NCBI RefSeq assembly: GCF_001427525.1
Contig: NZ_LMGU01000001.1
Location: 3,293,713-3,357,712, forward strand
Reading direction: 5' to 3'
Origin: Microbacterium sp. Root61
GTDB taxonomy: Bacteria; Actinomycetota; Actinomycetes; Actinomycetales; Microbacteriaceae
Length of the DNA stretch: 64,000 nt
The notes below the pieces were generated by a model. It was not told the DNA's origin, searched no databases, and saw only the letters and a program-made list of their open reading frames with translations. Both the position numbers and the translations under genes were made by a program. Numbering within the stretch: position 1 is the stretch's first letter; each line of letters starts with the position of its first letter. Shown one piece after another: positions 36,058 to 59,526 of this stretch.

Positions 36058-36651
36058 ATGAAGGCCGCCCACCGCATCGCCGTGATCGGTGCCCTCGGCC
36101 CGCTCCTCGCCGTGGCGCTGCTCGGCTGCGGTCCCGCGCCCTGGGAAGACGGCTCCACGCCCGCGCCGACCGGCTCGGCCAGCGTCATCCCGACTCCCGT
36201 CCCGAACGACATGTCCTCCGGGGCGACGCAGCGCACGCTCGTGGCGGGTGCCGTCACCGCGACCGTCGACTACTGGTCGACGCTCAGCATGGACAAGTGG
36301 ACGGCGGAGGCACTCAAGCCCGTCAGTCTGTCGATGCTCACGACGATCGAACCCAGCGACGGCCAGAAGGTCTACCTGCAGCGCGCCACCATGACGGTGA
36401 TCCCCTCCTCGCCGACGGAGACGCTCGCAGCGCTGGAGCCGCAGGTCGACGCCGCGACGGTGAGCCCGGGCTATCTCGTGCTCTCGCCGTACAGTTACTC
36501 GCAGACCTTCACCGTCGGGCCGGTGCCGGCGGAGGCGACCTACGTCACGCTGCAGTTCACCTACGACTTCCTGGTGCAGACGACGCCGACCTCGAGCGAG
36601 TACGCCAAGCAGACCGCGACGGACACCGTCACCGTAGCGCTGGCGCGCTGA
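36058..36651 (+). CDS. Predicted lipoprotein of unknown function
   Basis: The 197-residue product has a lipoprotein signal peptide ending LLGC (C24), a short Pro/Ser/Thr-rich linker and a beta-rich domain with no motif I recognise. It should be acylated on the cysteine and face outward. ATG 36058 has GGGAGACGC just upstream, and a TAGACT box lies at 36003-36008. Its last 23 bases overlap the end of the convergent gene on the other strand. Confidence 0.8.
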   Translation: MKAAHRIAVIGALGPLLAVALLGCGPAPWEDGSTPAPTGSASVIPTPVPNDMSSGATQRTLVAGAVTATVDYWSTLSMDKWTAEALKPVSLSMLTTIEPSDGQKVYLQRATMTVIPSSPTETLAALEPQVDAATVSPGYLVLSPYSYSQTFTVGPVPAEATYVTLQFTYDFLVQTTPTSSEYAKQTATDTVTVALAR

Positions 36652-37795
36652 GCAGCCGGTCGATCACGGTCGACCCGACCCGCTCCCACCGGTCGCCGCC
36701 CTTCTCGCTCGCGAGTGCCGCGGCATCGCGTGCCATGTAGGCCAGGGCTCCGAGCTCGTAGCCGACGGTCGAGGTCTGCGCCCAGCCCGCGCTGGCCGAC
36801 GGCTGCAGATGGCTTCCTTCGAGTTCGATGCGCGAGATGCGGCGCAGCGCGTCGCGCACCAGATCGCGGATGTCGGCATCCGGGCGCCGGATCAGCACGA
36901 CGAACCGTCCGACGCTCGGCTGTCCGATCACGGTCCCGGGTGGCAGCGCGGCGCGGATCTCGGTATCCACACGCCGGTTGAGCTCGGCCAGCGCGCCGCG
37001 TCCCGCGGTGTCATGGATCTCGCTGGCATCGTCGAGCTGGATGTGGACGAGGGAGCACGGCTCGCCGGTGGCCTGTGCCTGCCGGCACGTGTGCGCGGCC
37101 GCGCGCTCGAACGCCTGCCATTCGACGGATGCGCCCGAGCGGCGTGCGGCGAGCAGCGCGTGCACCGGGGGCGCGATCGCGGCGACGAGTGCGCAGAGCA
37201 GGTAGAGAATGGCGGCTGCGACGCCGACGAGGCCGACCAGGTCCTCGCTCATCGCCGCGGAGGTGACCGCGGGGTCCACGATTGTGGCCGCGATCGCGGT
37301 CAGAGCCAGGAGAGCGGATGCCGTGACCAGCGGGATGAGGCAGGCCGAGCGCGGGCGGGGGAGTCGCCACCATTCGAGCACCAGGAGGGCGGCGAACACC
37401 GCCCCCACGAGGGAAGTGCCGCGATGGGCCAGGGCGTCCCACGGCGTGCCGGCGGCTAGTCCCAGGACCCCCGCGGCGATCACCGCGAAGGCGCCGCCGA
37501 CCCACGGCAGATCCCGGACGCCGCGCAGCGCGCGGACTCCGGACCAGATGAGCACCGGAGCCGCCACCGCGCCGCCCAGGCTGAGGTGGCGCAGGAGATC
37601 GGAGTCGAGCTCGGCGGCCACGACCGCGCCGTACGCGGCGACCATCACCAGGGCGAACGCGAACGACCAGTCCAGCGTTGCCCTGCCCGGGTGGGAGAGG
37701 AACCCGATACCGATCGCCAGCATCGTCGCCAGGGTGGCGACGGCGGCGAGGGCGACCCCCGCGTAGGGCGTGATCGATAGGAGGATCTCGTTCAT
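36629..37795 (-). CDS. Membrane protein with degenerate GGDEF-like domain
   Basis: Seven or eight helices fill residues 1-215; a soluble domain spans about 235-375. Its layout follows diguanylate cyclases: IQLDDASEIHDTAGRGAL aligns with the LDhFKxINDxxGHxxGD region, and QPSVGRFVVLI with RxGGDEFxVLL, while ELGALAYMARDAAALASEKG matches the terminal ADxALYxAKxxG helix. The GGDEF signature itself is SVGRF, so c-di-GMP synthesis is not expected; a binding or regulatory role is possible. ATG 37795 overlaps the stop of the histidine kinase gene (ATGA), implying co-translation with it. Confidence 0.75.
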   Translation of the reverse strand: MNEILLSITPYAGVALAAVATLATMLAIGIGFLSHPGRATLDWSFAFALVMVAAYGAVVAAELDSDLLRHLSLGGAVAAPVLIWSGVRALRGVRDLPWVGGAFAVIAAGVLGLAAGTPWDALAHRGTSLVGAVFAALLVLEWWRLPRPRSACLIPLVTASALLALTAIAATIVDPAVTSAAMSEDLVGLVGVAAAILYLLCALVAAIAPPVHALLAARRSGASVEWQAFERAAAHTCRQAQATGEPCSLVHIQLDDASEIHDTAGRGALAELNRRVDTEIRAALPPGTVIGQPSVGRFVVLIRRPDADIRDLVRDALRRISRIELEGSHLQPSASAGWAQTSTVGYELGALAYMARDAAALASEKGGDRWERVGSTVIDRLLSAPALR

Positions 37796-39447
37796 CGGTC
37801 GTCACCGCCCGCAGAGGCGACGCGAGGGGGTGTCCGCGGCATCGTCACTGTGACGACCGTTCCGACGCCCAGCTCACTGTCGACCGAGAGCGTGCCGCCG
37901 TGCACCGCCACGATCTCCCGGCTGATGCCGAGTCCGAGGCCTGTGCCGCTCGCGGTCTCCTGTGCCTCTGCCGTGCGGAAGTACGGCGTGAGGACGTGCG
38001 GCAGGTCGGCGGGCGAGATGCCGATGCCGGTATCGGTCACGATCAGCGCGACCGTGTCGTCGGTGAGGACCGAGGTGACGCGCACCGCGCCGTCGCGCGG
38101 CGTGTACTTGATCGCGTTGCTGACGAGGTTGTCCACCACTTGCCGCATCCGGAAGCCGTCCCCGGTGACCGGGAGCGGATCATCCAGGTGCAGGTCGAGG
38201 GTGACCTCACGCGTGGCGGCCGTCGGGCGGAAGGATCCGACCGAGTCCCGGACGATCTGGCGCAGGTCGATCTCCTCGAAGGACTCGTTCCCTGTCCCGG
38301 TCGAGCGGCCGGTGCGGAGCATGCTGCCCGCCATCTCCAGCATCCGCTCGCTCGCACCGAGCATCGTCTCGAGGCGCTCCCGCATGCGGGGCGTGAGGTC
38401 ATCCGCCTCGAGGGCGAGCTCCGCGTTGCCGATCATCACGGTGAGCGGATGCTTGAGCTCGTGCGACGCGATCGCATTGAGTCGCTCGCGCTCGCGCTGC
38501 GCATAGGTGATCGCGGTGACGTCCTGGACGACGAGGAGGGTGCTCGGCTCCTCGTCCTCCGACGAGCTGAGCCGCTTGGCGCTGATCGAGAGCGCGCGCC
38601 ACTCGCCTTTCGGCGTGAACAGCCACACGCGGGCATCGCTGAACGTCTCGCCGCGCACCGCTCGCGCGAACGGCCGGTCGAGCGGTGGCAGTGGCATGCC
38701 GCGTCGGCCGGCGTATTCGACAGACGTGCCCGGCAGATTCGGGTCGATCGGATCCAGCCCGTAGAGGCGCGAGTAGGCGTGGTTGACGGTGAGGACGATT
38801 CCGGATGCCGAGAGCCGCGCGACGCCCGTATCGACACCGTTGAGGATCTCGTTGGCGCGACGCTCCTGGTCGGCCCGTCGTTCGGCCGTGGCCTTCAGCC
38901 GACGCGCCTGTCGCCGCTGGAGCCTGCGGAAGGCGCGCATCTGGCGCATCGCGAGATGGGTGGTGATGCCGATGAACAGGACTGAGAGGAGCACGATGAA
39001 CAGGCGCAGGGTCACCGCCGGACTCGGCGTGCCGATTGCGTCCACCAGCAGGATCGCGGCGATGACCGCGAGCATGGCGCCCAGCGCTGCGGCGCTGAAG
39101 TGCATCGCCACCCACATCACCGGGAACGCCCACAGGTAGCCGAAGCGCAGGTCGGTGTCGCTGGCGACGAGCCCGATGGCCAGCGCGTCGAGGAATGGCA
39201 CCGCGAGGACCGCCGACTGGGGCAGCCGGATCCAGGGAACGGTGAGCGTGGCCAGGCTGACCACGACGATCGCCAGCACGCCCACCGCGAAGGTCCAACG
39301 GGTGAACAGTTCGGGCTGCAGGAACAGCACCAGGACACTGATCGTCAGCACGCTGGCGGCCAGCACCAGCTGTGTCAGCCAGACTGAACGCGTGCGGGAG
39401 TCACTCGCGCCCGCGGATGGCGCCTGCGCTAACCCCCCGGTAGCCAT
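37792..39447 (-). CDS. Sensor histidine kinase (membrane, PAS)
   Basis: The 551-residue kinase has five or six N-terminal helices (about 25-165), a coiled stretch, a PAS-like domain (205-315), HisKA with SHELKHPL (phospho-accepting H329), and an ATPase domain with NLVSNAIKYTP (N box), DTGIGIS (G1) and GTGLGLGIS (G2). All catalytic boxes are intact. TAGACT at 39454-39459 lies 6 nt before the ATG, indicating a leaderless message. It is divergent from the GT2 gene and near the response regulator at 41138-42052, its likely partner. The signal sensed is unknown. Confidence 0.93.
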   Translation of the reverse strand: MATGGLAQAPSAGASDSRTRSVWLTQLVLAASVLTISVLVLFLQPELFTRWTFAVGVLAIVVVSLATLTVPWIRLPQSAVLAVPFLDALAIGLVASDTDLRFGYLWAFPVMWVAMHFSAAALGAMLAVIAAILLVDAIGTPSPAVTLRLFIVLLSVLFIGITTHLAMRQMRAFRRLQRRQARRLKATAERRADQERRANEILNGVDTGVARLSASGIVLTVNHAYSRLYGLDPIDPNLPGTSVEYAGRRGMPLPPLDRPFARAVRGETFSDARVWLFTPKGEWRALSISAKRLSSSEDEEPSTLLVVQDVTAITYAQRERERLNAIASHELKHPLTVMIGNAELALEADDLTPRMRERLETMLGASERMLEMAGSMLRTGRSTGTGNESFEEIDLRQIVRDSVGSFRPTAATREVTLDLHLDDPLPVTGDGFRMRQVVDNLVSNAIKYTPRDGAVRVTSVLTDDTVALIVTDTGIGISPADLPHVLTPYFRTAEAQETASGTGLGLGISREIVAVHGGTLSVDSELGVGTVVTVTMPRTPPRVASAGGDDR

Positions 39448-39636
39448 AGGGCGAGTCTATGCGGCCCCGCGCATGGGACGTCTCCCCGCGTGCGGGAGCA
39501 CCCCTTGCGGGATCTTGAGCAAATCCTGCGGGTCTACCCGGCGACCCCGGATCTCCCGTTGCGCTCGATCCGCGAGGCTGGTCCTGCGGCACCGAGAACC
39601 CGGGCGTGCGCATACCGAAAACGAAGGCGAACAGCA

Positions 39637-41121
39637 GTGACCGACATCGTCCCACTCTCCACGACAGACCCCCGACGTCAGGGTGCGCGCCCTGACGTCG
39701 CTGCGGAGCTCGAAATCATCCCGCCGGTCGTCGGGTTCCCCGACGACTTCGACGCGGTGCTGGATGACGGCACGGTGCATCGCTCCACGATCGGCTGCGT
39801 CATCCCGGCGTACAACGAGGAGGAGTCGATCGCGCAGGTGATCGAGTCGCTGCTCGGCCAGACGCGCGTGCCCGACGTGATCCACGTCGTGGTGAACAAC
39901 ACCTCGGATGCGACGGTGAAGATCGCCTCCCGCTACGCAGGTCCGCACGAGGTCGTCACCGAGCTCGGCGAGCAGTTCACCGAGGTGTTCGTGCACGACA
40001 TCGGCAAGAACCCCGACAAGAAGGTCGGTGCGCTCAACTACGGCTTCGCCCTCGTCGAGGGCTACGACTATCTGCTGGGGGTCGACGGGGACACGGTCGC
40101 CGACAGCCGCGCGGTCGAGTACCTCGAGTCCGAGGCGGTCTCGGACACCCGTATCGGCGGCATCTCCGCCATCTACACGATCGACGACAAGCCGATCAAG
40201 GGCGGCATCGCCAGGTTCCTCATCGCCGGCCAGCGCTCGCAGTTCGCGGCCTTCAACCTGCAGAACCTGCTGCGCGGCCGCAACATGGCCGTGCTCGGCG
40301 GGCAGTTCTCGATCTTCTCGACCCACGCGTTGCGCGACGCGATGGAGCAGAACCACCAGTCCAGCCCGTGGGTGAAGGACAGTGAGGTCGAGGACTCGCT
40401 GCTGTCGCTGCAGATCAAGAGCGCAGGCTATCTGACGAAGATCAGCCCGTTCGCCCGGGCCGACGTCGGCGGAATGACCACGCTGCGCGCGCTGGACGCG
40501 CAGCAGGTGAAGTGGACCTACGGTGCGATCGAGCTGATGTGGCCCGGACAGCGCGGCGACACCAAGGGCCAGCCGTTCCACCCCAACCTGCGCATCCGGT
40601 GGTTCGAGAACTTCGGGATGCTGACCAACCTCTTCGTGCGCGTCGCGTTCCTGACGCTCCTGGCCGGGTCGTTGTCCATCGGGGCGTTCGTGTTCTCGGC
40701 GTGGTGGCTGGTGCCGGTCGTGGTCGCGATGCTGCTCAACCTGCGCATGGCCCTCACGATGAACACCCGCTCTGCCCTCGACATCCTCTTCGCCGTCACC
40801 CTGCTTCCCGCCGAGGTGTACATGTGGGTGCGGCTCAGCCACTTCGCCCGCTCATGGACGCGGTTCCTGTCGCGCAAGAAGGTCGACAACTGGGCCATGC
40901 AGGCCAAGGCCGAGCGGGGTTCCGGGCTCGGTCACTGGACGCCGCTGATCGTGGTGGTCATCGTGATCATCGCCGCGGCGATCATCTGGTCGATGCTCGG
41001 CCCGGTCGTGCAGTCCTCGATCCTGTGGATCGGGTGGCCCATCGTCGGCATCGTGACCGTGCTGCAGACCGTGTCGATGCTGTTCAAGCTGATCCGCCGG
41101 CAGCACGGCTTCAAGGTCTGA
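39637..41121 (+). CDS. Processive family 2 glycosyltransferase (polysaccharide synthase)
   Basis: From the GTG at 39637 the protein has 494 residues. The cytoplasmic GT2 domain has VIPAYNEEESI, DxD-type VDGDT (D150, D152), the acceptor/base motif VEDSL (E252, D253) and QQVKW (289-293), a variant of QxxRW. C-terminal helices (about 330-380 and 425-480) fit a synthase that pushes polymer through the membrane, as in cellulose and hyaluronan synthases. The neighbouring GH6 cellulase suggests a beta-1,4-glucan-like product. A longer frame from 39490 is possible, but its N-terminus is Arg-rich and lacks similarity, and AAGG precedes 39637. Confidence 0.87.
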   Translation: MTDIVPLSTTDPRRQGARPDVAAELEIIPPVVGFPDDFDAVLDDGTVHRSTIGCVIPAYNEEESIAQVIESLLGQTRVPDVIHVVVNNTSDATVKIASRYAGPHEVVTELGEQFTEVFVHDIGKNPDKKVGALNYGFALVEGYDYLLGVDGDTVADSRAVEYLESEAVSDTRIGGISAIYTIDDKPIKGGIARFLIAGQRSQFAAFNLQNLLRGRNMAVLGGQFSIFSTHALRDAMEQNHQSSPWVKDSEVEDSLLSLQIKSAGYLTKISPFARADVGGMTTLRALDAQQVKWTYGAIELMWPGQRGDTKGQPFHPNLRIRWFENFGMLTNLFVRVAFLTLLAGSLSIGAFVFSAWWLVPVVVAMLLNLRMALTMNTRSALDILFAVTLLPAEVYMWVRLSHFARSWTRFLSRKKVDNWAMQAKAERGSGLGHWTPLIVVVIVIIAAAIIWSMLGPVVQSSILWIGWPIVGIVTVLQTVSMLFKLIRRQHGFKV

Positions 41122-41137
41122 CGTGCTCGGGGCGCGC

Positions 41138-42052
41138 CTATTCGGCGGTCATGCGGTAGCCGACGCCCCGGACGGTCTCGATGTAGCGGGCGTTGACCGG
41201 GGTGTCGCCGAGCTTGCGGCGCAGGTTCGTCATGTGCGCCTCGATCGCGCGCTTGTCGGCGTCGCCGACGAAATAGCTCGTGACGTACGACTCGCCGCGC
41301 AGCACCAGGGTGAGGTCGGCCTTGCTGCGCACCCGGCGCTTGGATTCGAGGAGGGTCGCGAGCAGGTCGAACTCGGTGCGCGTCAGGTCCAGCTCTGCGC
41401 CGCGCAGCTGGACGATGCGGGTATCGGGCTGGAGCTGCAGGTCGCGGTGGTGCAGCCATTCGCCGTGCGCGCCGTCGACCGGGACCGGCACCGGGGTTTC
41501 GGATGCCTCGTCGCGCGGGGCGGCCGGGGGAGCTGCCGAAGCCGGCGCAGACGTGCGGTCCATCACGGCCGGCCGGATGACGGGGTTCGCCACCGTCGTC
41601 GGGCGCGCGCCGGGGAACGAGGGGCCGACGCTCTCCTGCATCGGCACTGCCGCATGCCCGCCGGCTGCGGGCACCCGGCGCAGGATCGAGTCGATACGGG
41701 CGCGGAGCTCGCGCGGCCGGAACGGCTTGGCCAGGTAGTCGTCCGCACCCGAGCCGAGGCCGATCACGACGTCGGCCTCCTCCTGCATCCCGGTGAGCAT
41801 GATGATGTACGTGTCGGAATGCGAGGCGCGGATGCGCCGTGCCGCTTCGATGCCGTCGATCCCGGGCATGTTGACGTCGAGCGTCGTGATGAGCGGCTTG
41901 TACGTGAGGACGGCCTTCACGCCGTCGATCCCGTTGCCGACCGACACGGTGGAGAAGCCCGCAGACTCGAGGACCTCGGCCAGCAGACGCCGGATATCGG
42001 GGTCGTCCTCGATGATGACGGCGGTCTTGAGGACGTCGGCGGGGATGCTCAT
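41138..42052 (-). CDS. OmpR-type response regulator (copy 1)
   Basis: The 304-residue protein has a receiver domain (10-130) with acidic EDD, phospho-accepting D59 in TLDVNMPG and LAKPFRPRE, a Pro/Ala-rich linker of about 60 residues, and a winged-helix DNA-binding domain with LTRTEFDLLATLLESKRRV and YIETVRGVGYRM. ATG 42052 is chosen because it puts Asp at residue 59, the same as the paralogue at 58687-59526; no strong ribosome-binding site is visible. It lies between the GT2 and GH6 genes and is the probable partner of the nearby kinase. Confidence 0.92.
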   Translation of the reverse strand: MSIPADVLKTAVIIEDDPDIRRLLAEVLESAGFSTVSVGNGIDGVKAVLTYKPLITTLDVNMPGIDGIEAARRIRASHSDTYIIMLTGMQEEADVVIGLGSGADDYLAKPFRPRELRARIDSILRRVPAAGGHAAVPMQESVGPSFPGARPTTVANPVIRPAVMDRTSAPASAAPPAAPRDEASETPVPVPVDGAHGEWLHHRDLQLQPDTRIVQLRGAELDLTRTEFDLLATLLESKRRVRSKADLTLVLRGESYVTSYFVGDADKRAIEAHMTNLRRKLGDTPVNARYIETVRGVGYRMTAE

Positions 42053-42169
42053 GAAGGGGGCGAACCTCTCTCGGAACGGCGGCGACCATTGCCCGTGCGC
42101 GAGAGCATCAGCCCTGCCCTGGGGGTGCGGGGTCTCTTTGAGACTACACACCGCGCCCTCCGTGCCGCC

Positions 42170-43207
42170 TCAGTCGACCGGAGCGTCGGATGTCAGGGTG
42201 ACTGCAGCTCGCGGCCACCAGGTACCGGCTGTCGGCCCGCCGTTGCAGGTGCCGTCGCTTTCCCCTGGCGGCTTGATCCAGAGGTTCGAGTCGACCACGT
42301 CATCGTGCACCTCGCCGCCGGGGGAGCCGACGCGCCGTCCGGACGGATTGCACCACTCGCCGTTCGAACCGACGCCGTTGCGTGACGTGTCGATGACGGC
42401 GCGGGCACCGGGGAGTAGGGCGGCCAGCGCGTGCGCGTACGCCACCTCCGCGTCGGTGGCGTTGTAGTTGGACACATTCGTCGCGAACCCGCGCACCTGA
42501 TCGAGCACGCCGACGTCCTCGATCAGCTGCGCCATCTGCTCGGCGGGGAGCCAGGCCGAGTGCCCGCCGTCGAGATAGATCCAGGTGTGCGGGGCAGCGA
42601 GCGCCTCCACCGCGCTGCGCAGCTGCGCGCTGCGCTCGTCGGCGTTACCGCATTCCGGGGCCAGAGCGAGGCTGTCCGGTTCCAGGATCAGGATGCTCGA
42701 CACGTCGGCGTTCTCGCGCAGCACGTCGCCGATGGCCGTCGTCCATTCCGCGTATGCGGCGGGTTCCAACCCGCCCGCAGAGTGGCCGCCGCAGTCGCGC
42801 CCCGGCAGGCCGTAGATCACCAGCGCCAGGGTGGCGGACTGCGTGCGCGCTTCGTCGGCCAGCGCCGCGACGCGCGCCGGCACCTGCGCGATCGGGTCGG
42901 CCTCCGGCGTCAGCCATACCGCCGTCGGCTGCGCGCTGAGGTAGACGGCCGCGTCGTGCTCGGGTGTCCCTGCCGTCCCGGTCGCGGCCGCCGCGTGCGC
43001 CTTCGAGAGAGCGGATGCCACGACCTGTGTGCCGTCGCCCGGAGGCGTCGGCGCACCGAATCCGGCGGGCCAGAGGAGGAGGGCGACGACCACGGCGATC
43101 ACCGCGACGCCGGCGGCACCGACGATGAGCGCGACGAGTCGTGTCCGGCCGCTGCGGAGCTCGGAGGAGCGCGGAGCGGGGGTCCGCGCCGGGTCGGCGG
43201 AAGTCAC
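42170..43207 (-). CDS. Membrane-anchored GH6 family cellulase-like glycoside hydrolase
   Basis: The 345-residue protein has one N-terminal helix (about 23-47) and an external GH6 domain with the family landmarks YGLPGRDCGGHSAGG, LEPDSL (E176-D178), LDGGHSAWL, DTSRNG, WCNPSGR and LWIKPPGESDGTC. GH6 enzymes hydrolyse beta-1,4-glucans with inversion. Beside a GT2 synthase it may trim or release the polymer, like the BcsZ cellulase in cellulose operons. The GTG at 43207 follows a TAGAGT box (43214-43219) by 6 nt, suggesting a leaderless transcript. Confidence 0.92.
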   Translation of the reverse strand: MTSADPARTPAPRSSELRSGRTRLVALIVGAAGVAVIAVVVALLLWPAGFGAPTPPGDGTQVVASALSKAHAAAATGTAGTPEHDAAVYLSAQPTAVWLTPEADPIAQVPARVAALADEARTQSATLALVIYGLPGRDCGGHSAGGLEPAAYAEWTTAIGDVLRENADVSSILILEPDSLALAPECGNADERSAQLRSAVEALAAPHTWIYLDGGHSAWLPAEQMAQLIEDVGVLDQVRGFATNVSNYNATDAEVAYAHALAALLPGARAVIDTSRNGVGSNGEWCNPSGRRVGSPGGEVHDDVVDSNLWIKPPGESDGTCNGGPTAGTWWPRAAVTLTSDAPVD

Positions 43208-43336
43208 GAGGGGACTCTACCGGTCCACCGCAGCAGCCCCGCGCGCGGTGCCTCCGGCATCCGTCCGCTATGAGTGTTCTGGGGATCTTGTCATCGTCCC
43301 CGCTGCGGGGCGCCGTGGTCATAGGCTGGGGCCGAC

Positions 43337-44029: not shown

Positions 44030-44032
44030 GGC

Positions 44033-44594: not shown

Positions 44595-46385
44595 CTAAGG
44601 CGCACTGCAGAGGGCGGCAAACGCCGTGTCGCCGCCGATCCGTGGCGTGGACTCGATGCGCAGCTCAGGACCCGTCGGCACCGTGGCGCGGGCGATGATG
44701 GTGGCGGTGGCGCTCGCCCCGGGGGCGAGGTCGACCGTGAAGCTCACCACGCGGCGACCGTCGTGCACGCCGCCGCCGAAACCGGGGTCGCCGGTGAGGG
44801 TGGCATCGAGGAGTTCGAAGCCCTCGGGGAGGTAGATGTAGCCGACCGTGCGCGCGATGCCGGGCGGCACGTCGAACACGCCACCGCCGGTGATGTAGTC
44901 CGGCAGCGCGGCCGCGTCGGCCGGGGCATTGCTGGTGAGGGTCACGGTGAGCTCGGCCGTACCGTGCGCAGCGCCCGCGGCATCCGCCGTGCACTGCGTC
45001 CACTCCGCGGCGGAGTCCGCCGTGAGGTAGAAGTCCATCTTCGAGCCGGTGCCGTCGTTGAGGTACACGCCGAACGTCGAGGTCGCATCGTCGGTCACCG
45101 GCAGTCCGCCCGCGAGGGTCGTGCCGGCGATGATCGCCTGCTCCTCGGGGTGTGCGCTCCACATCAGCAGGCGGTGCTCGTCACCGGCGCGGGCGAGCGC
45201 GGTCACCAGCTCGGTCGGGTTCGCGGTGCCGTCCGACAGGGCGGAGAAGACGGCGGCGGCGGCCGCGGCGAAGAAGAGGTCCTGATCGGCGGGGCGCTGG
45301 TACCGCTGGTAGACGTCGTTCAGCAGCAGCGGCACGGCGTTCTCGGTGGTCAGCACGTCGCCGGTCGGCAGCGGCACGGGGCCGGTCGCGGCGAGCATGT
45401 ACGACAGCACCACCGGGTCGAGCGCGATCACGCCGTCGACCTGTTGGCCGCCGTTCTCGCGCGCCCACATCTCCTTCGCGAGCTCGGCCGAGACGGCGAA
45501 GTCGGGCACCTGGGTGACGTTCTGGATCCACTTGCCCGGCCGGTCGCCGTAGATCGCGAGGATCTCGTCCGACAGCGGGAGGACGGATGCCTCGTACTGG
45601 GTGAAGTCGCTGCTGGAGCCCTGCGCGGCCAGCGACATCGCGCCGCCGTCGGTGTGGATCACGGCCATCGCGCCGGGGATTCCGCCGAGGGACCGCCACT
45701 CGGCGTTGTTCTGGAAGAGCACGAGGTAGTTGCGCGGGCCGTCGGCACCGAGCATCGAGGGCAGCAGGAGTGTGGCGCGGGCCAGGGCGTCGGTGGCGCC
45801 GCGGGTCTGCTGCAGCAGACCGTCGACCTCGTCGACGGCGCTGCGCAGCGGAGCGACGAGCGGACGGTGGTCGATCTCGTCGAGGGATGCCGCGGCCTGC
45901 GCGATGCCGTCGGCGCCGGTCGTGGCGGCATCCTGCAGCGACACGAAGCCGGCCAGATCGATGCGGCCGGCCTGGGGGCGGAGGGCGTCGAACGAGAAGC
46001 TCGATGCGACCTCGACCAGGGGCGCCAGCGCGCTGCCGGCGACGTCGTCGAGGGACGCCGCGATCGTGGAGACGGCGGACAGCTGCGGTCCGGCCCAGGG
46101 CAGTCCTTCGGCGAGGCGCCACAGCGGGTCGCTGGTGAGGGACCGGGCGGCGGCGGTGTCGGCGGCGATCGCGTCGATCGCACCGGAGGCGGCGGCCGGG
46201 TCGGTGAGCTGGCTGCGGGCAGACTCCGCGGCGGCCTGTGCGTCGCGCAGGTGCCCGTACGCGAGGAAGCCGCGGACGCCGACCCAGACGACCATGACGA
46301 GGGTCACGAGGAGGATCGCGCCCAGGACGGCGGCGAAGACGAGGCCTGCCACGCGCGCGGGACGAGAGATCGCGGCACCGGTCAT
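44595..46385 (-). CDS. DUF4012 family membrane-anchored protein
   Basis: This 596-residue protein has one N-terminal helix (about 12-35), a long helical stretch with Ala-rich coiled-coil character (45-210), and the DUF4012 core with NYLVLFQNNAEWRSLGGIPG, followed by a beta-rich C-terminal part. Such proteins are common in actinobacteria, often beside exopolysaccharide genes, but have no assigned activity. TAGGCT at 46392-46397 ends 6 nt before the ATG (leaderless). It lies 13 nt upstream of the LPATG gene and is probably co-transcribed with it. Confidence 0.88.
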   Translation of the reverse strand: MTGAAISRPARVAGLVFAAVLGAILLVTLVMVVWVGVRGFLAYGHLRDAQAAAESARSQLTDPAAASGAIDAIAADTAAARSLTSDPLWRLAEGLPWAGPQLSAVSTIAASLDDVAGSALAPLVEVASSFSFDALRPQAGRIDLAGFVSLQDAATTGADGIAQAAASLDEIDHRPLVAPLRSAVDEVDGLLQQTRGATDALARATLLLPSMLGADGPRNYLVLFQNNAEWRSLGGIPGAMAVIHTDGGAMSLAAQGSSSDFTQYEASVLPLSDEILAIYGDRPGKWIQNVTQVPDFAVSAELAKEMWARENGGQQVDGVIALDPVVLSYMLAATGPVPLPTGDVLTTENAVPLLLNDVYQRYQRPADQDLFFAAAAAAVFSALSDGTANPTELVTALARAGDEHRLLMWSAHPEEQAIIAGTTLAGGLPVTDDATSTFGVYLNDGTGSKMDFYLTADSAAEWTQCTADAAGAAHGTAELTVTLTSNAPADAAALPDYITGGGVFDVPPGIARTVGYIYLPEGFELLDATLTGDPGFGGGVHDGRRVVSFTVDLAPGASATATIIARATVPTGPELRIESTPRIGGDTAFAALCSAP

Positions 46386-50496: not shown

Positions 50497-51807
50497 CTAG
50501 GGGCGGCCCATGCCGTAGTACGTCCAGCCTGCGGCCCGCCAGGCGGCGGCATCCAGGCAGTTGCGTCCGTCGATGATGATGCGACCGGCGGTGAGCGCGG
50601 AGACGTGCTCGGGCGGCATCTGGCGGCGGTATTCGTCCCACTCGGTGACGACGATGACGGCGTCGGCATCGCGGAGTGCTTCGTCGCGGTCTTCGACGTA
50701 GGTGAGCTGCGGGTGGCGGCTGCGGGCGTTCTCGATCGCGGCGGGATCGGTGACGGTGACGTTCGCCCCGAGGCCGCGGAGTCGCACGGCGACGTCGAGG
50801 GCGGGGGAGTCGCGGATGTCGTCGCTGTGCGGCTTGAATGCGGCGCCGAGGACGGTGATCTTCTTCTCGAACACCGTCCCATCGAGAGCAGCGACGGTCA
50901 GATCGACTGCGCGGTCGCGGCGGCGCAGGTTGATGGCGTCGATCTCGCGGAGGAACGCGACGGACTCGCCGCGGCCGAGCTCCTCTGCGCGGGCGGAGAA
51001 GGCGCGGATGTCCTTCGGGAGGCAACCGCCGCCGAAGCCGATGCCGGCGCCGAGGAAGCGGCGGCCGATGCGGGCGTCGTGGCCGATCGCGTCGGCGAGC
51101 TGGGTGACGTCGGCGCCGGTGACTTCGGCGATCTCGGCCATGGCGTTGATGAACGAGATCTTCGTCGCGAGGAACGCGTTGGCGGCGACCTTGACCAGCT
51201 CAGCGGTGGCGAGGTCGGTGACGATGAACGGGGTGCCCTTGGCGACGGCCGGGTGGTAGACCTCGCGCAGGGTGGCGGCGGCGCGCTCGCCGGCTTCGCC
51301 CGCGGGCACGCCCACGACGAGCCGATCGGGGTCGATGGTGTCCTGGACGGCCCAGCCTTCGCGAAGGAACTCGGGGTTCCAGACAAGGGTCGCGCCGGTG
51401 GCTTCGACGCGAGGGGTTAGGTCGGCCGCGGTGCCCACCGGCACGGTCGACTTGCCGGCGACGAGGTCGCCCGGGTTCAGGTACGGGAGGAGACCGTCGA
51501 TCGCGGCGTTCACATACGTGAGATCGGCGGCGTAGCCGTCCTTCTGCTGCGGGGTGCCGACACCGACGAAGTGCACGGTCGCCCCGGATGCCTCGGCCAT
51601 GTCCGTCGTGAAGCGCAGGCGGCCCGACTGGATGCCCTCAGTGAGGATCTCCTGCAGTCCGGGCTCGAAGAACGGTGCTTCGCCGCGGGAGAGCTGCTCG
51701 ACCTTTCGTGCGTCGACGTCGATGCCGATGACGTCGTGGCCGATGGACGCCATGGCAGCCGCGTGGACGGCGCCGAGGTAGCCACAGCCGATGACAGAAA
51801 GACGCAT
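50497..51807 (-). CDS. ugd: UDP-glucose 6-dehydrogenase
   Basis: The enzyme oxidises UDP-glucose to UDP-glucuronate with two NAD+. The 436-residue protein has the N-terminal Rossmann motif GCGYLGAVHAA, NPEFLREGWAV, catalytic Cys262 in FGGGCLPKD, and the C-terminal domain with GAAFKPHSDDIRDSPA. UDP-glucuronate feeds capsule, teichuronic acid or exopolysaccharide synthesis. AGGAG precedes the ATG at 51807. The upstream region has a palindrome and repeated TGTCTTGGGG motifs. Confidence 0.95.
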   Translation of the reverse strand: MRLSVIGCGYLGAVHAAAMASIGHDVIGIDVDARKVEQLSRGEAPFFEPGLQEILTEGIQSGRLRFTTDMAEASGATVHFVGVGTPQQKDGYAADLTYVNAAIDGLLPYLNPGDLVAGKSTVPVGTAADLTPRVEATGATLVWNPEFLREGWAVQDTIDPDRLVVGVPAGEAGERAAATLREVYHPAVAKGTPFIVTDLATAELVKVAANAFLATKISFINAMAEIAEVTGADVTQLADAIGHDARIGRRFLGAGIGFGGGCLPKDIRAFSARAEELGRGESVAFLREIDAINLRRRDRAVDLTVAALDGTVFEKKITVLGAAFKPHSDDIRDSPALDVAVRLRGLGANVTVTDPAAIENARSRHPQLTYVEDRDEALRDADAVIVVTEWDEYRRQMPPEHVSALTAGRIIIDGRNCLDAAAWRAAGWTYYGMGRP

Positions 51808-51995: not shown

Positions 51996-52012
51996 GCGGG
52001 GTGACACGTGCC

Positions 52013-53617: not shown

Positions 53618-53737
53618 ATGGCGACCAAACGACGCAAGAAGCGGATCGCACCGATCAGCCCGGTGTGGGGGTACGCGATGCTCGCGGTGGTGACGGCGAT
53701 CTGCGGAGTGCTGGTGTTCGTCGCCCTCCGCCATTGA
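53618..53737 (+). CDS. Small membrane protein (39 residues)
   Basis: ATG 53618 to TGA 53737 encodes MATKRRKKRIAPISPVWG followed by one hydrophobic helix and LRH. A basic N-terminus then a helix indicates a single-span inner-membrane protein. TACGCT at 53605-53610, 7 nt before the ATG, fits the leaderless pattern of neighbouring genes. Function unknown; it is too short for comparison by eye. Confidence 0.55.
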   Translation: MATKRRKKRIAPISPVWGYAMLAVVTAICGVLVFVALRH

Positions 53738-53744
53738 CGCCCGT

Positions 53745-54569
53745 CTAGGCGGTGAGCTCGCGCAGCAGCATCCCGAACGCCCGCATCTCCGCGAGCACGT
53801 CATCGCGAAGCGACGGGTCAAGGCGTTCGTCCCATCCCGCGAGGCAGGCGTAGGCGACGGTGCGCGAAGGTCCTTCGACGAAGCCCACGTCGACGCGCAC
53901 GCCGGCATCGGTGCCGGTCTTGTTGATTACCCGGAAGCCGCGATCGGCGAGCGTGTGTGCGAGGGGATCGAGTCCGAACGCGCCGACGACCATGCTGAGG
54001 TCGACACCGTCGCCCAGCCAGTCGCAGACCTGGGCCGTGACGTCCGCGTCGATCCCATCGGCGGACGCGAGACGGGCGAACAGCTCGGCGTACCCACGCG
54101 CCGTCCCGGTGCTGAGGGTGACCGGATCCACCGGATTCCGCACATCGCGCAGGATGTCGTGCAAGAAGACATCGCGGATGTCGAGGCCTTCCGCCGTCGC
54201 CGCGATCTGCTCGATGCCACCCAGGCGGCGCAGCAGCACGTTGGTCGCCCAGTTGTCCGATACCGCACCGACGAGCCGTGCGACGTCGCCCAGGGGCAGG
54301 GTGTCGGTGGCGAGATGCTGCCACAGGCCGGAGTCGGCGACGGGGGCCACATTCGTCCGGCTCAACGGTTCGGCGAGGGTCGCCCCGCCGCCGGACACCG
54401 CGCGAGCTGCTTCGAGCAGCACCAACACCTTCGCCGCGCTCGCCGAGGGGAGCACGGCATCCGCTTCCCATGTGCAGAGGTCTTTACGGGACCCGCCGAC
54501 CTCGATCGCGCACACGCTCCAGCGCACTCCTCGCGAGGCCGATGAGGTCAGGAATCGTGGAAGCGCCAT
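53745..54569 (-). CDS. Class A beta-lactamase-fold serine hydrolase without signal peptide
   Basis: The 274-residue protein has the serine beta-lactamase triad: SAAK (S44-K47), SDN (104-106) and KTG (217-219), and the helix pattern TARGYAELFARL. The N-terminus (MALPRFLTSSASRGVRWS) is not a signal peptide, whereas true beta-lactamases are exported. It could be a cytoplasmic esterase or peptidase of the family, so resistance should not be assumed. The upstream gap to 54811 has no gene that I can support. Confidence 0.85.
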   Translation of the reverse strand: MALPRFLTSSASRGVRWSVCAIEVGGSRKDLCTWEADAVLPSASAAKVLVLLEAARAVSGGGATLAEPLSRTNVAPVADSGLWQHLATDTLPLGDVARLVGAVSDNWATNVLLRRLGGIEQIAATAEGLDIRDVFLHDILRDVRNPVDPVTLSTGTARGYAELFARLASADGIDADVTAQVCDWLGDGVDLSMVVGAFGLDPLAHTLADRGFRVINKTGTDAGVRVDVGFVEGPSRTVAYACLAGWDERLDPSLRDDVLAEMRAFGMLLRELTA

Positions 54570-54810
54570 GTCGCGTCGACGGTATCAGCGGAGCACAGAG
54601 CCCCGCACCCGGTTTCATCGCGGCATGCTCGACGATCGCGGTGCCCCGCATACAGCCAGCCTGAAGATCGCCTCAGGGTTTTACCCAGTCCGCTGAAGAT
54701 ATCCCCCAACGGTGATCGCACTCGCTCCACACCCCATAGGTTCGAAACGAAGCAGCATCAGCGCGTGCATGAACACGAGGTCGCTGCACTCGAATCGGGG
54801 GACGAGAGCC

Positions 54811-57105
54811 ATGTCAGACTCATCTATCGACGCGCCTGTCGCGCGTCGCAGGCGTCAATGGGGAACGGAGCGCGCGAAGGCGCCGCTGCCGGCCGTGCAT
54901 CCCCGGCCGTCCAACACGAAGCTCATCTGGGGTCGTGTGGCGATCTGGGTGACGGTCGCGATCTGGATCCTCTACGTGCTCACCGTCGTGGTCACGCTGC
55001 TGATGGCGGGGGCGTTCGATACGACGTGGCGCGTGATCGAGGCGGTCTCATACCTCCTTGTCGTGACCTTCCTGATGTTCTCCGCCCTGATGTATCTGGT
55101 GGCTCGGCAGGGTGCGTTCCAGCGATTCCGCACCCACAAGCGCGCCGCGCGTGCGGAGCTCGACAGGCACTTCTCGACCCCGCACGAGGTCTTGACCGTG
55201 CTGGTTCCCTCCTACGCCGAGGAGCCCGGCGTCGTGCGCAAGACGCTCTGGTCGGCCGCACTGCAGGAGTACCCCTCCCTGCGGGTGGTGCTGCTGATCG
55301 ACGACAACCCGATTCCGACCGATCCCGAAGTCGCCGAAAAGCTCGCCGAGACCCGTGGGTTCGCCGAGCAGATCATGACCGCCCTGGATGAGCCGGCCGA
55401 ACGCTTCTCGGACGCGCTGATCGCGTGCGAGCACCAGATGCTGGTGTCGGGTGCACTGGATGGGAACGCCATGGTGCGACTGGTCGAGGAGTACCGGTTC
55501 GCCGTGGAGTGGCTGCGCGACATGGCCGCGGCCGAAACGCGCGATGACCACGTCGACGACTTCTTCGTCGATGAGGTCATCCTGGGGCTGGCCGACGATC
55601 TCGAGTCCACGGCGTTCGCCGTCGGCGCCGCGATCGAGGCATCCGAATCCATTCCCGATGACCGCATTCACGAGCTGTTCCGTCGCCTCGTCTGGATCTT
55701 TCGTGCCGAACTCACGCAGTTCGAGCGCAAGCGCTACGCCTCGCTCTCGCACGAAGCCAACAAGGCGATGAACCTGAACTCGTACATCGGTCTGCTCGGC
55801 GGGCGGTTCGCCGAGCAGGAGACCCCCGACGGTCTGATGCTGCGTCCGGTGCCCGCCGCCCAGCCCGCCGATCTCGACGTGCCCTACTCGGAGTTCGTAC
55901 TGACGCTCGATGCTGACTCCGTACTGCTGCGCGACTACTGCCTGCGGCTCGTGCACTTCCTCGAGCAGCCCGAGAACCTGAAGGTGGCGGTCACACAGAC
56001 GCCCTACTCGTCGTTCCGCGGAGCCCCGACACGCATCGAGCGGCTTTCGGGGGCGACGACCGATGTGCAGCACATCCTGCATCAGGGCATGACGGCGCAC
56101 AACGCGACCTTCTGGGTCGGCGCGAACGCGGTGATCCGCATGGAAGCGCTCGATGACATCCTCGAGATCGACACGGTCGACGGCTTCGAAGTGCGCCGGT
56201 ACGTGCAGGACCGCACGGTCATCGAAGACACCGAATCGAGCGTCGACCTCGGGGAGCACGGCTGGACCCTCATCAACTATCCCGAGCGGCTCAGCTACAG
56301 CGCGACTCCGCCCGACTTCGGCTCGCTCGTCGTGCAGCGTCGACGCTGGGCGAACGGTGGCCTGCTGATCCTGCCGAAGTTCTGGAAGCAGGTGCGCCAG
56401 CGCCGCCAGATGCTCAAGCCTCTGGGTATGGGCGAGATCATGGTGCGTGTCAACTACATGGCATCGATCGCGTGGGCGAGCTTCGGCCTGGTCTTCCTGC
56501 TGATCTACCCGTACGACAGCCGGCTGGTCAGCCCGCTGGTGCTCGTCGGTGCGCTGCCGTACTTCCTGGCGATGGCCAGCGACCTGCACTACTCGGGGTA
56601 CAAGCGAACCGACATCTTCCGCATCTACGGGTTCAACCTGATCATGCTGCCGGTGAATCTCGCCGGCGTGTTCAAGTCGATCCAGCAGGGCCTCACGGGC
56701 ACGAAGATCCCGTTCGCCCGCACCCCGAAGGTGAAGGACCGCACGGCGACGCAGCTGCTCTACGTGGTCGCACCGTACGTGATCGTCTTCTTCTCGGCCT
56801 TCGTCGCCTGGCGCAGTTTCGTCGACGGTGCGTGGGGAACGCTCGCGTTCTCCACCATCAATGCAGTGCTGGGGTCGTGGGCGATTCTCGCCAACATCGG
56901 CATCCGCAACTCGATCATCGACATCTGGATCGGCTTGACCGACTGGATGTGGGTCGACGCGACACCCGCATCGCGTGACGCGAAGATCGAGGCCGAAGTC
57001 GACTGGCGCAGCACGCTGCACAACGGCCATGCCGCACCCGGCGAGACCACCCCGACGGGCGCTGCCCCCAGACGCAGGACCCGCGAGAAGGCGAGCGCAC
57101 AGTGA
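54811..57105 (+). CDS. Cellulose/chitin synthase-like GT2 glycosyltransferase
   Basis: The 764-residue protein has two N-terminal helices (about 40-90), a GT2 catalytic domain with LVPSYAEEPG (131-140), LIDDNP (D164, D165), LDADS (D367, D369), IEDTES (E472, D473) and QRRRW (509-513), and further helices (550-700). All residues needed by processive beta-glycan synthases are present. A helical insertion of roughly 190 residues separates the first and second Asp motifs. ATG 54811 follows GACGAGAG; a longer frame reaches 54712. The next gene, a GH18 protein, overlaps by 4 nt, hinting at an N-acetylglucosamine-containing polymer. Confidence 0.9.
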   Translation: MSDSSIDAPVARRRRQWGTERAKAPLPAVHPRPSNTKLIWGRVAIWVTVAIWILYVLTVVVTLLMAGAFDTTWRVIEAVSYLLVVTFLMFSALMYLVARQGAFQRFRTHKRAARAELDRHFSTPHEVLTVLVPSYAEEPGVVRKTLWSAALQEYPSLRVVLLIDDNPIPTDPEVAEKLAETRGFAEQIMTALDEPAERFSDALIACEHQMLVSGALDGNAMVRLVEEYRFAVEWLRDMAAAETRDDHVDDFFVDEVILGLADDLESTAFAVGAAIEASESIPDDRIHELFRRLVWIFRAELTQFERKRYASLSHEANKAMNLNSYIGLLGGRFAEQETPDGLMLRPVPAAQPADLDVPYSEFVLTLDADSVLLRDYCLRLVHFLEQPENLKVAVTQTPYSSFRGAPTRIERLSGATTDVQHILHQGMTAHNATFWVGANAVIRMEALDDILEIDTVDGFEVRRYVQDRTVIEDTESSVDLGEHGWTLINYPERLSYSATPPDFGSLVVQRRRWANGGLLILPKFWKQVRQRRQMLKPLGMGEIMVRVNYMASIAWASFGLVFLLIYPYDSRLVSPLVLVGALPYFLAMASDLHYSGYKRTDIFRIYGFNLIMLPVNLAGVFKSIQQGLTGTKIPFARTPKVKDRTATQLLYVVAPYVIVFFSAFVAWRSFVDGAWGTLAFSTINAVLGSWAILANIGIRNSIIDIWIGLTDWMWVDATPASRDAKIEAEVDWRSTLHNGHAAPGETTPTGAAPRRRTREKASAQ

Positions 57106-58667
57106 GTACGGCATCCAAAGGACGACACCCGGGCAAGCGTCTCTCGCCGTGGCGGGTGCTCACAGGGGTCGCCGTGGTGCTGGCTGTGGTCGCCACCGCG
57201 GTGGCCGTGCCGCTCGTGCTGGACCGCCGCGCCAACGCCGAGGACGTGGTGGTCGCGGGACCGCGATGGTTCGGCGGGTACTTCGATGTGACCGCCGCCA
57301 AGGTGTCGGACATGCCGACCTCGAACCTCGAGGCTCCCTCCAACGTTGTGCTCGCGTTCGTGGTCGCCGAGGCCGCCGATAGCTGCGTGCCCACCTGGGG
57401 CGCGGCATACGACCTCGACGCGGCGAGCCGTGAACTCGATCTCGACCGCCGCATCGCCCGCATGCGCCAAGACGGCGCCGACGTGGTCGTATCGTTCGGC
57501 GGTGCGCTGAACACGGAGCTGGCTGCGGCCTGCGCGAAGGTCGACGATCTGGTCGGTGCCTATGGTGCGGTCATCGACCGCTACGACATCTCCATGATCG
57601 ATCTCGACGTCGAGGGCGCCAATCTCACGGATGACGTCGCCGGCTACCGGCGGGCCCAGGCGGTGGCGGAGCTGCAGAAGCAGCGCCGCGCCGACGGAGA
57701 AGACCTCAAGGTCTGGCTGACGCTGCCCGTTGCGACCTACGGTCTGCTCGACGACGGCCTTGCGGCTGTGAAGCAGATGCTCGTGGCCGGAGTCGACCTC
57801 ACCGGCGTCAACGTGATGACCATGGACTACGGCACCGATCTCGGGGGCAAGTCGATGGCAGAGGCGTCGATCGACGCGCTGAATGCGACGAACCAGCAAC
57901 TTGCCGACCTCTATGCCGCGAATGACGTGCCACTTCCGCCGCAGGGCGCGTGGGCGGTTCTCGGCGCCACGCCGATGATCGGTCAGAACGACGTCGTCGA
58001 TGAGGTGTTCACGATGAAGGATGCCGCCAAGCTCAACGCATTCGCGGTGTCGCACTCGATGGCGCGCATGTCGATGTGGTCGCTGAACCGCGATCGCACG
58101 TGCGGGCCCAACTATCCCGACGTCACGGTCGTCTCGGATGCCTGCAGCGGTGTGCCGCAGGGAGGCGACAGCTTCGCCGCGGTTCTCGCGGCAGACTTCG
58201 ACGGACGTCCGTACCCGACAGCGACGCCCACCCCGACCGGACATCCGACCGTGGTGCCGACGGATGATCCCGAGACCGCCCCGTATCCGATCTGGTCGCC
58301 CGATCTCGCCTACTCCGCGGGGGTGCGAGTGGTCTGGGGCGGCAATGTGTACGCGGCGAAGTGGTGGAGTCAGGGCGGTGCGGAGCCGAATGACCCGACA
58401 CTGAGCGCGGATCAGACACCGTGGACGCTGGTGGGACCGGTGCTGCCGACCGATGAGCCGTTCGCCCTGCCGACTGTGCCTGCCGGAACCTACCCCGACT
58501 GGTCGGTCGATCAGGTCTACGAGAAGGGCGCCCGGGTGGTTTACGCAGGAACGCCGTTCGTCGCCAAATGGTGGACGCGAGGCGACAACCCTTCGATCGG
58601 CATCACCGATCACGACCGTTCGCCGTGGGAGCTGCTGCCGGTCGGGGACGCCCCGACCACCGAGTGA
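57102..58667 (+). CDS. GH18 chitinase-like protein with two CBM5/12 modules, membrane-anchored
   Basis: An N-terminal helix (about 17-38) anchors a GH18 domain (50-350) with VVSFGGALNTEL, the catalytic signature IDLDVEG (D167, D169, E171) and VMTMDYG. After a Pro/Thr linker come two chitin-binding-type modules (about 385-440 and 455-515), each with a KWW motif (AAKWWSQGG, AKWWTRGD). It should bind and cut chitin-like chains outside the cell. The GTG overlaps the synthase stop (GTGA), so synthase and hydrolase are co-translated. Confidence 0.92.
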   Translation: MSTASKGRHPGKRLSPWRVLTGVAVVLAVVATAVAVPLVLDRRANAEDVVVAGPRWFGGYFDVTAAKVSDMPTSNLEAPSNVVLAFVVAEAADSCVPTWGAAYDLDAASRELDLDRRIARMRQDGADVVVSFGGALNTELAAACAKVDDLVGAYGAVIDRYDISMIDLDVEGANLTDDVAGYRRAQAVAELQKQRRADGEDLKVWLTLPVATYGLLDDGLAAVKQMLVAGVDLTGVNVMTMDYGTDLGGKSMAEASIDALNATNQQLADLYAANDVPLPPQGAWAVLGATPMIGQNDVVDEVFTMKDAAKLNAFAVSHSMARMSMWSLNRDRTCGPNYPDVTVVSDACSGVPQGGDSFAAVLAADFDGRPYPTATPTPTGHPTVVPTDDPETAPYPIWSPDLAYSAGVRVVWGGNVYAAKWWSQGGAEPNDPTLSADQTPWTLVGPVLPTDEPFALPTVPAGTYPDWSVDQVYEKGARVVYAGTPFVAKWWTRGDNPSIGITDHDRSPWELLPVGDAPTTE

Positions 58668-58686
58668 GTTGAAACCGTCGGGTCGG

Positions 58687-59526
58687 CTACGGCGTCAGTC
58701 GGTAGCCGACCCCGCGGACGGTCTCGATGTAGCGGGGCTCGGTGGGGTTGTCGCTGAGTTTGCGCCGGAGATTGGCCATGTGCGCCTCGACGGCGCGCTT
58801 GTCGGCCTCGCCGACGTAGTACGACGTCGCCTGTTCCTCACCGCGCAGCACCAGGGTGAGGTCCGCCTTGCTGCGCACCCGTCGCTTCGACTCCACGAGG
58901 GTCGCGAGCAGGTCGAATTCGGTGCGGGTCAACTCGACCTCGCGGTCTACTACCAGCACCGTGCGGGTGGCCGGGTTGACGCGCAGGTCGTGGTGGCTGA
59001 CCCAGTGGTTCTCGTCGCGAAGCGGAGCGGTCGAGCTCGCGACGGCAGCAGCACTGGGGAGCGGATGCCTCGTACCCGGGGTCGACGCGGGCGTGGGCGC
59101 GACAGCATCCTCAGTGGCATCGGTCGACGTCGGTGGGCGCTCGAGGCGGGGGCGACGCAGCATGGCTTCGATGCGGGCGCGCATCTCGCGCGGCCGGAAC
59201 GGCTTCACGACGTATTCATCGGCGCCTGCGCCGAGGCCCAGTACGATGTCCGCCTCGGTGCCGAATGCCGACAGCATGATGATGTAGGTCGTGCTGTACT
59301 TGCGGATCCGTCGCGCGGCTTCGAATCCGTCGATGCCGGGCATGTTCACATCCAGCGTGGTGACCAGGGGCTGATGGATGCGAACGGCTTCGACGCCGTC
59401 GAGTCCGTTGTCCACGGGGATCGTGCGAAAGCCTGCGGCGTCGAACAGCTCGATCAGCAGCGCGCGAATGTCCGGGTCGTCTTCGACGACAACGGCGATC
59501 AGCCGCTCATCGGGGGAGTCAGTCAT
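58687..59526 (-). CDS. OmpR-type response regulator (copy 2)
   Basis: This 279-residue protein is a clear paralogue of the regulator at 41138-42052: receiver with EDD, D59 in TLDVNMPG and VVKPFRPRE, a variable linker, and a winged helix with the same LTRTEFDLLATL, ESKRRVRSKADLTLVLRGE and YIETVRGVGYR blocks. The near-identical recognition region suggests overlapping DNA targets. ATG 59526 is chosen to match the paralogue; GTG 59556 is possible. No kinase gene is adjacent. It converges with the GH18 gene. Confidence 0.92.
   Translation of the reverse strand: MTDSPDERLIAVVVEDDPDIRALLIELFDAAGFRTIPVDNGLDGVEAVRIHQPLVTTLDVNMPGIDGFEAARRIRKYSTTYIIMLSAFGTEADIVLGLGAGADEYVVKPFRPREMRARIEAMLRRPRLERPPTSTDATEDAVAPTPASTPGTRHPLPSAAAVASSTAPLRDENHWVSHHDLRVNPATRTVLVVDREVELTRTEFDLLATLVESKRRVRSKADLTLVLRGEEQATSYYVGEADKRAVEAHMANLRRKLSDNPTEPRYIETVRGVGYRLTP

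Follow-up and report, generated by a model that had tools for sequence, protein, structure and literature searches.

We analyzed a 64-kb stretch (the window) of the genome of Microbacterium sp. Root61, which totals 4.02 Mb in two contigs. The window carries two gene groups, blocks A and B, each of which combines a family 2 glycosyltransferase (GT2) with a glycoside hydrolase (GH) and an OmpR/PhoB-type response regulator. Here we describe these genes, their conservation, and a predicted operator that precedes both glycosyltransferase genes.

Block A consists of six genes. LP (36058-36651, plus strand) encodes a putative lipoprotein with the lipobox LLGC; it matched no Pfam or NCBIfam family, and we assign it no function. 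Beside it on the minus strand lies a gene for a GGDEF-like membrane protein with six hydrophobic segments (36629-37795; PF00990, 22.9 bits, slightly below the cut-off of 23.8). The GG[DE]EF active site is absent from all 81 aligned proteins of this kind; the domain is degenerate, and we judged synthesis of cyclic di-GMP by this protein unlikely. HKa (37792-39447, alternative start 39366, minus strand) is a histidine kinase with HisKA and HATPase_c domains and, by hydropathy, about five N-terminal membrane segments. The glycosyltransferase GT2a (39637-41121, plus strand; PF00535) carries the motifs DGD, VED, and QQVKW, which are kept in 98 of 98 aligned sequences (QQ[VI]KW, with I replacing V in one). 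Its hydrophobic segments are confined to the C-terminal third, and it had no match among PDB sequences at an E value of 0.01. RRa (41138-42052, minus strand) is the response regulator, with a receiver domain, Asp59, and a Trans_reg_C domain. The last gene (42170-43207, minus strand) encodes a family 6 hydrolase, GH6 (PF01341, 200.5 bits, cut-off 27), anchored by one N-terminal membrane segment. The catalytic-site motifs DCG and EPD are present, and the best solved-structure match is 1UP0, the putative cellulase Cel6/CelA1.

Block B consists of three genes. GT2b (54811-57105, with domain scans made from 54805; plus strand) encodes a BcsA-like GT2 synthase (PF13632, 122 bits) with the motifs DAD, IED, and QRRRW, the last of which is found in 46 of 47 aligned sequences. 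Membrane segments flank its catalytic domain on both sides, and its solved-structure matches are BcsA-type cellulose synthases only. GH18 (57102-58667, plus strand) has an N-terminal membrane segment and an intact DxDxE motif (IDLDVEG); its PF00704 score of 23.6 bits is below the cut-off of 29.6, and its best solved-structure match is Exochitinase 1 (9buf, E 1.5e-44, residues 52-359). Two CBM5/12 modules, at 58293-58424 and 58500-58628 on the plus strand, gave 24.4 and 33.9 bits, respectively, in separate scans, against a Pfam cut-off of 26.2. The response regulator RRb (58687-59526, minus strand), with a receiver domain, Asp59, and a Trans_reg_C domain, has no adjoining kinase.

These assignments agree with an original prediction made for this DNA in the coordinates it gave for the two blocks (39637-43207 and 54811-59526), in the membrane anchors of both hydrolases and the two chitin-binding modules of GH18, and in the single kinase beside block A and none beside block B. 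The prediction had also called the regulators close paralogues, and they are 56% identical, with Asp59 and all three of the sequence blocks it quoted present in both. Its description of two paralogous modules, however, does not extend to the enzymes. BLASTP finds no significant similarity between GT2a and GT2b (best E 2.5), which rules out paralogous synthases, and GH6 and GH18 belong to different families; only the regulators are paralogous. The prediction included neither LP nor the GGDEF-like gene, nor a third kinase/GGDEF-like/regulator set and the operators described below.

To define candidate regulatory sites, we used motif discovery by expectation maximization (EM), which took the place of counts of promoter 8-mers, on regions upstream of GT2a genes. 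The regions came from 62 of 80 named GT2a loci (the best 80 of 320 GT2a relatives, all picked for GT2a similarity) and, separately, from 13 of 15 loci in other genera; near-copies and short regions were left out. The 62-sequence set is mostly Microbacterium, with at least two loci from elsewhere (L194 and L196), and contains neither the window sequence nor any GT2b promoter. L059, in the other-genera set, is closely related to L196, as judged by regulators and common 8-mers, and L062 and L070 are near-identical copies within one genome. Both models consist of tandem CTTGAG/CTTGCG-like half-sites, arranged as direct repeats ~11 bp apart. The log-likelihood was 770 for the 62 sequences, compared to 105-116 for shuffled sequences, and 250 for the 13 other-genera sequences, compared to 79-89.

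When the window was scanned with the first model, the best site, predicted operator A (39511-39538, plus strand; score 20.0), lay between HKa and GT2a. The second best, predicted operator B (54653-54680, minus strand; score 14.2), has the same direct repeats and lies 131-158 bp before GT2b. The third-best site scores 4.2, and five shuffled windows peaked at 5.9-10.3; exactly two of 213 300-bp tiles of the window scored at least 10. None of 1000 shuffles reached the score of operator A. When the 300 bp that precede GT2b were shuffled by dinucleotides, two of 1000 versions reached 14.2; nine window promoters were examined. In a 450-kb sample of the same genome, 7.7 kb of which overlaps the window, no site scored 14 or more (best, 13.3). 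The original prediction had proposed shared control of the two blocks, which gains support from the paralogous regulators and the direct-repeat operator common to both GT2 genes. On this sequence evidence, we consider shared transcriptional control of GT2a and GT2b through the predicted operator to be well supported.

We examined block A in 100 Microbacteriaceae genomes, including that of Root61. GT2a was found in 18 of these, and the 17 other genomes contain 18 GT2a loci, 15 with a closely related GT2a. By tblastn, these 15 loci contain the kinase in 14 cases, LP in 14, the regulator in 14, and GH6 in 13; one locus that lacks both regulator and GH6 stops at a contig end, and the GH6 of that genome sits at the edge of another contig. 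A profile search found LP in at least 15 of the 100 genomes. Each of these 15 also gave a GT2a match, and one of them gave an additional, weak LP match at another place. Counts of regulator and LP matches are lower bounds, with at most 24 and 31 candidates, respectively, scored per genome. Among the 80 named loci, in which the closest relatives of GT2a come from Microbacterium species (82-87% identity in the top rows), 71 had enough flanking sequence. Within 6.5 kb of GT2a these contained LP in 70 cases, the regulator in 71, GH6 in 71, the kinase in 53, and the GGDEF-like gene in 57; 50 of the loci contained all six genes. Of 12 GT2a loci outside the family, eight contained GH6, nine a regulator match, and three LP, with GT2a, regulator, and GH6 together in eight of 12. 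Judged by these neighborhoods, block A is a conserved cassette.

Two other genes accompany GT2a elsewhere. A second lipoprotein family, LP2 (~240 amino acids; for example, L151:9022-9774), has 54 members near GT2a among the named loci and directly precedes it on the same strand in 30 loci; LP2 had no match among the predicted proteins of the window. LP and LP2 are distant kin (96.7% probability). A relationship of LP to TasA was ruled out, as the alignment covers signal peptides alone (hhalign probability 12%). In 10 of the 15 loci from other genera (L059-L073), a small Hpt-type gene lies downstream of GT2a (for example, L059:9561-9938), with no match in the window. All seven Hpt-type genes scanned match PF01627 at E values up to 1; the match displayed in full has a score equal to the cut-off. 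All seven aligned proteins have leucine at what we take to be the place of the phospho-accepting histidine.

GT2b and GH18 were present in an identical 27 of the 100 family genomes. The two genes adjoin in 26 of 27 family loci and in 19 of 20 other Microbacterium loci, and they lay within 1.5 kb of each other in all eight loci of other families from a class-wide search, with a gap of up to ~1.4 kb. A regulator of the RRa kind stands beside GH18 in only four of the 20 other Microbacterium loci (L220, L221, L222, and L239; L221 and L222 are near-identical). In these four, a kinase and a GGDEF-like gene lie on the far side of the enzymes, which reproduces the frame of block A. GT2b is present in three of them; L239 has the kinase, GH18, and RRb and no GT2b. 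Among 27 GT2b loci of other genera, one (L097) has such regulator-set genes nearby, not adjoining. The linkage in relatives that the original prediction called for is strong in block A and between GT2b and GH18, and it extends to the block-B regulator in only those four of 20 loci. From these neighborhoods, block B is a widespread GT2b-GH18 pair, mostly without a regulator, that appears to have acquired one. In the window, a beta-lactamase-family gene (PF13354; 53745-54515) occupies the place of the kinase and GGDEF-like genes of the block-B relatives and shares the operator B region.

To place the regulators, we built a tree from 37 hand-picked rows. All Microbacterium regulators except that of the third set of Root61 fall on one side (bootstrap/Shimodaira-Hasegawa-like approximate likelihood ratio test, 98/99), and the RRb of the window clusters with its four block-B counterparts (86/96). 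Three stand-alone regulators also lie within the Microbacterium clade. As the grouping of RRb with RRa inside Microbacterium receives only 69/82, we place RRb in this clade and not as the sister of RRa. Quickly built trees group the kinases and GGDEF-like proteins of the block-B loci L220, L221, L222, and L239 with Microbacterium ones, and the L097 GGDEF-like protein falls outside. The third set, a kinase, a GGDEF-like gene, and a regulator at ~C1:163198-166965, has no GT2 beside it. Two sub-threshold motif matches, L009:7342 (12.0) and L009:7394 (12.2), lie upstream of its regulator; the gene after them is presumably coaE. The block-B kinase itself was not found in the Root61 genome, where the L220 kinase is matched best by HKa (42%) and by the kinase of the third set (31%).

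We also scored the operator in these loci. Sites lay within 330 bp of GT2a in 66 of the 80 named loci (training sequences included), and six of the 14 misses have a site 0.9-1.3 kb upstream, before the second lipoprotein gene. Sites were found before GT2a in 12 of 15 loci from other genera and, scoring at least 14 and each close before GT2a, in six of 12 from other families. Among Microbacterium GT2b promoters, all outside the training set, every one of the seven whose GT2b is 63-71% identical to that of the window has a site (18.1-34.5). With L239, which scores 17.0, sites occur in all four loci with a block-B regulator in cis (17.0-21.8), and they also occur in all four loci with no cis regulator, whose GT2b is 63-67% identical (27.6-34.5).

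The two kinds of locus differ in a second respect. In a sample of 119 Microbacterium genomes, 51 have GT2a; the four with a cis regulator (G213, G198, G177, and G210) are not among them, and the four with a GT2b site and no cis regulator (G204, G108, G154, and G134) all are. By hand calculation, the chance of this split is 1 in 70, a figure weakened by the near-identity of two of the loci. Strong GT2b sites in genomes that lack a cis regulator and possess GT2a are expected if the block A regulator acts in trans.

We favor the reading that blocks A and B are two separate extracellular-polysaccharide units under one signaling family, to which we assign a probability of roughly 0.7. A set of observations weighs against it. 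In the window there is no operator before LP, GH6, GH18, RRa, or RRb. The window GT2b site is the weakest of its class (14.2, compared to 13.3 for the best site in the 450-kb sample), and the cut-off of 14 was chosen after the score of 14.2 had been seen. The other-genera model ranks the same two places first (13.5 and 12.0), but this model alone is not significant for the window sites, as its shuffled maxima span 5.3-14.7. Among the GT2b identity groups, which were drawn after the fact, no site was found in any of 10 Microbacterium loci at 45-49%, all from genomes with GT2a, or in either of two at 57-59%. None of 27 GT2b promoters from other genera has a site within 330 bp; L077 scores 11.3, the best within that distance, and L078 has 15.3 at about -440, and these two may be weak versions of the operator. 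None of the eight GT2b promoters from other families has a site. The alpha1 interface residues of RRb resemble those of block-B regulators and not those of RRa. Lastly, QxxRW is a motif of processive GT2 enzymes, and the processivity of GT2a is uncertain because it has K for R in this motif and no N-terminal membrane segments.

The alternative that best withstands the data is independent control, in which block A answers to HKa and RRa, RRb is an orphan that is inactive or served by another kinase, and the GT2b site survives as a decaying remnant of an earlier block-B system. The weak GT2b site and the alpha1 residues fit this account, as does the absence of a block-B kinase from the genome, in which HKa and the third-set kinase come closest to that of L220. 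However, RRb retains Asp59 and both domains, and four Microbacterium genomes pair a strong GT2b site with no cis regulator and a GT2a elsewhere. We consider independent control unlikely.

A different objection concerns the hydrolases. GH6 enzymes and GH18 enzymes with CBM5/12 modules are common secreted polysaccharide degraders, and the two could be a scavenging cellulase and chitinase that serve carbon acquisition rather than polymer trimming, beside GT2s that make unrelated glycans. In keeping with this, GH6 matches occur in 26 of the 100 family genomes, 12 of which have no GT2a match. Scavenging does not readily account for the N-terminal membrane segment on both hydrolases, the single match of each in the Root61 genome at the cut-offs used, the linkage of hydrolase to GT2 across families, or the finding that the 27 family genomes with GH18 are exactly those with GT2b, and we think it quite improbable.

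The original prediction's check on co-occurrence of the two sets gave a weak result: in the genus, GT2a is present in 12 of 18 genomes with the block-B GH18, compared to 38 of 100 without (Fisher p 0.036), and in the family p is 0.06 or 0.19, depending on how strictly GT2a is defined. Blocks A and B were not seen close together in any other genome; in many they lie on different contigs, and the closest pair on one contig is ~140 kb apart. That the blocks merely happen to lie ~12 kb apart among other polysaccharide genes, with RRa and RRb just two of the 15 Trans_reg_C matches above cut-off in the genome (one more falls below), is nonetheless very improbable, since both regulators are Microbacterium kin and in the window the operator marks these two promoters and no others.

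How might two units under one signaling family work? HKa would sense an envelope or matrix cue and phosphorylate RRa. With the block-B kinase gone, it probably phosphorylates RRb too. That one kinase drives both regulators is plausible, and consistent with the finding that four block-B relatives own a kinase and the window has none such. Phosphorylated RRa and RRb would bind both predicted operators, switching the two synthases in concert. GT2a and GT2b would make and export two different beta-linked polymers, which the anchored GH6 and GH18 would trim at the cell surface or release from it. The polymer identities, a beta-1,4-glucan-like polymer for GH6 and one containing N-acetylglucosamine for GH18 with its CBM5/12 modules, are taken from the hydrolases alone and form the weakest step.

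A wider reading is possible, and we offer it tentatively, at somewhat less than even odds. The RRa family would be a matrix master regulator across Actinomycetes, and its frame would have been copied between glycan units in Microbacterium. The copied kinase, and then the copied regulator, would become dispensable when both units share a genome and block A acts in trans; the window, with the kinase lost and the regulator kept, would be an intermediate. In scope, one operator would mark GT2-lipoprotein-GH6 units, GT2-GH18 units, and, in four other Microbacteriaceae loci, genes for SipW-dependent, TasA/camelysin-like exported proteins. Among 13 loci with stand-alone regulators of this kind, we found 10 sites that score at least 14. 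The SipW-dependent genes lie downstream of a site at L109:8418-8966, L110:12855-13424, L113:3589-4161, and L116:6251-6856 (TIGR04089, 101-126 bits, cut-off 60); in L110 and L113 the operator's target is ambiguous because the site lies between divergent genes. Further sites in stand-alone-regulator loci precede a kinase, Hpt-like genes, and a beta-lactamase-family gene. Taken as a lead, these predicted sites point to one regulator family that governs the protein as well as the polysaccharide of the matrix.

Around the blocks lie genes for DUF4012, UDP-glucose/GDP-mannose dehydrogenase, polysaccharide pyruvyl transferase, and WecG/TagA proteins (44595-46385, 50497-51807, and 61356-63429). Elsewhere in the window, a membrane adenylate/guanylate cyclase with dCache and HAMP domains directly precedes an MscS-type channel with a cyclic-nucleotide-binding domain (31431-35047), possibly a cyclase-gated channel pair. 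A long same-strand gene run that includes a 1771-amino-acid frame (5729-28138) is perhaps a prophage.

The literature matches listed describe the block A cassette or the operator in no title or abstract opening, and those under open licenses include no regulator of Microbacteriaceae surface polysaccharides. The predicted operator shared by GT2a and GT2b promoters is new here. It makes the question of which genes make matrix, and when, directly testable, and our results suggest that one signaling family switches two different surface polymers. The four loci with the regulator in cis and the four apparently served in trans form a small natural record of the duplication, reuse, and loss of a two-component system.

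Several known systems resemble parts of this arrangement. OmpR/PhoB-type regulators bind tandem direct repeats; RRa and RRb have the receiver and Trans_reg_C domains of this type, and the predicted operator has tandem half-sites at the spacing given above. They differ in that a GGDEF-like protein accompanies them; other genera also have an Hpt-domain gene with leucine for the expected histidine. BcsA and BcsZ are a cellulose synthase and hydrolase pair in which BcsZ belongs to GH8. Block B is similar in pairing a synthase that matches BcsA-type structures with a hydrolase, but GT2b scores 78.9 bits against the CelA equivalog TIGR03030 (cut-off 699.1) and has no PilZ match, and its hydrolase is GH18 rather than GH8. 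Systems for poly-N-acetylglucosamine synthesis include PgaC/IcaA and Streptomyces MatAB. To PgaC/IcaA (TIGR03937), both GT2s are weak matches (47.1 and 44.8 bits, below the cut-off of 422.3), and unlike that system the annotated neighbors of blocks A and B include no deacetylase.

In Actinoplanes, according to PMC12691653, the imp cluster differs in its GT4/GT2 pathway and in the GH5 of its cluster figure, and GH6 and GH18 are not among the terms of that text. It is similar in that glycoside hydrolases, encoded by gimA and gimB, act on matrix polysaccharide and that biosynthesis genes lie beside one of them (PMC12691653). A further parallel is the Streptomyces cslA-glxA-cslZ cluster (PMC9040799; PMC11022532). 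In this cluster, CslZ is a putative GH6 lipoprotein that cuts cellulose, alpha-chitin, and peptidoglycan (PMC9040799); because this related enzyme acts on alpha-chitin and peptidoglycan too, the GH6 of block A is no proof of a glucan. A scan of predicted genes from 36058 to 63429 gave no Pfam match to a GlxA-like radical copper oxidase. Block A differs from the Streptomyces cluster in its separate lipoprotein and in the presence of a two-component system along with a GGDEF-like protein; like CslA-GlxA-CslZ, it pairs a GT2 synthase with a GH6 encoded on the opposite strand.

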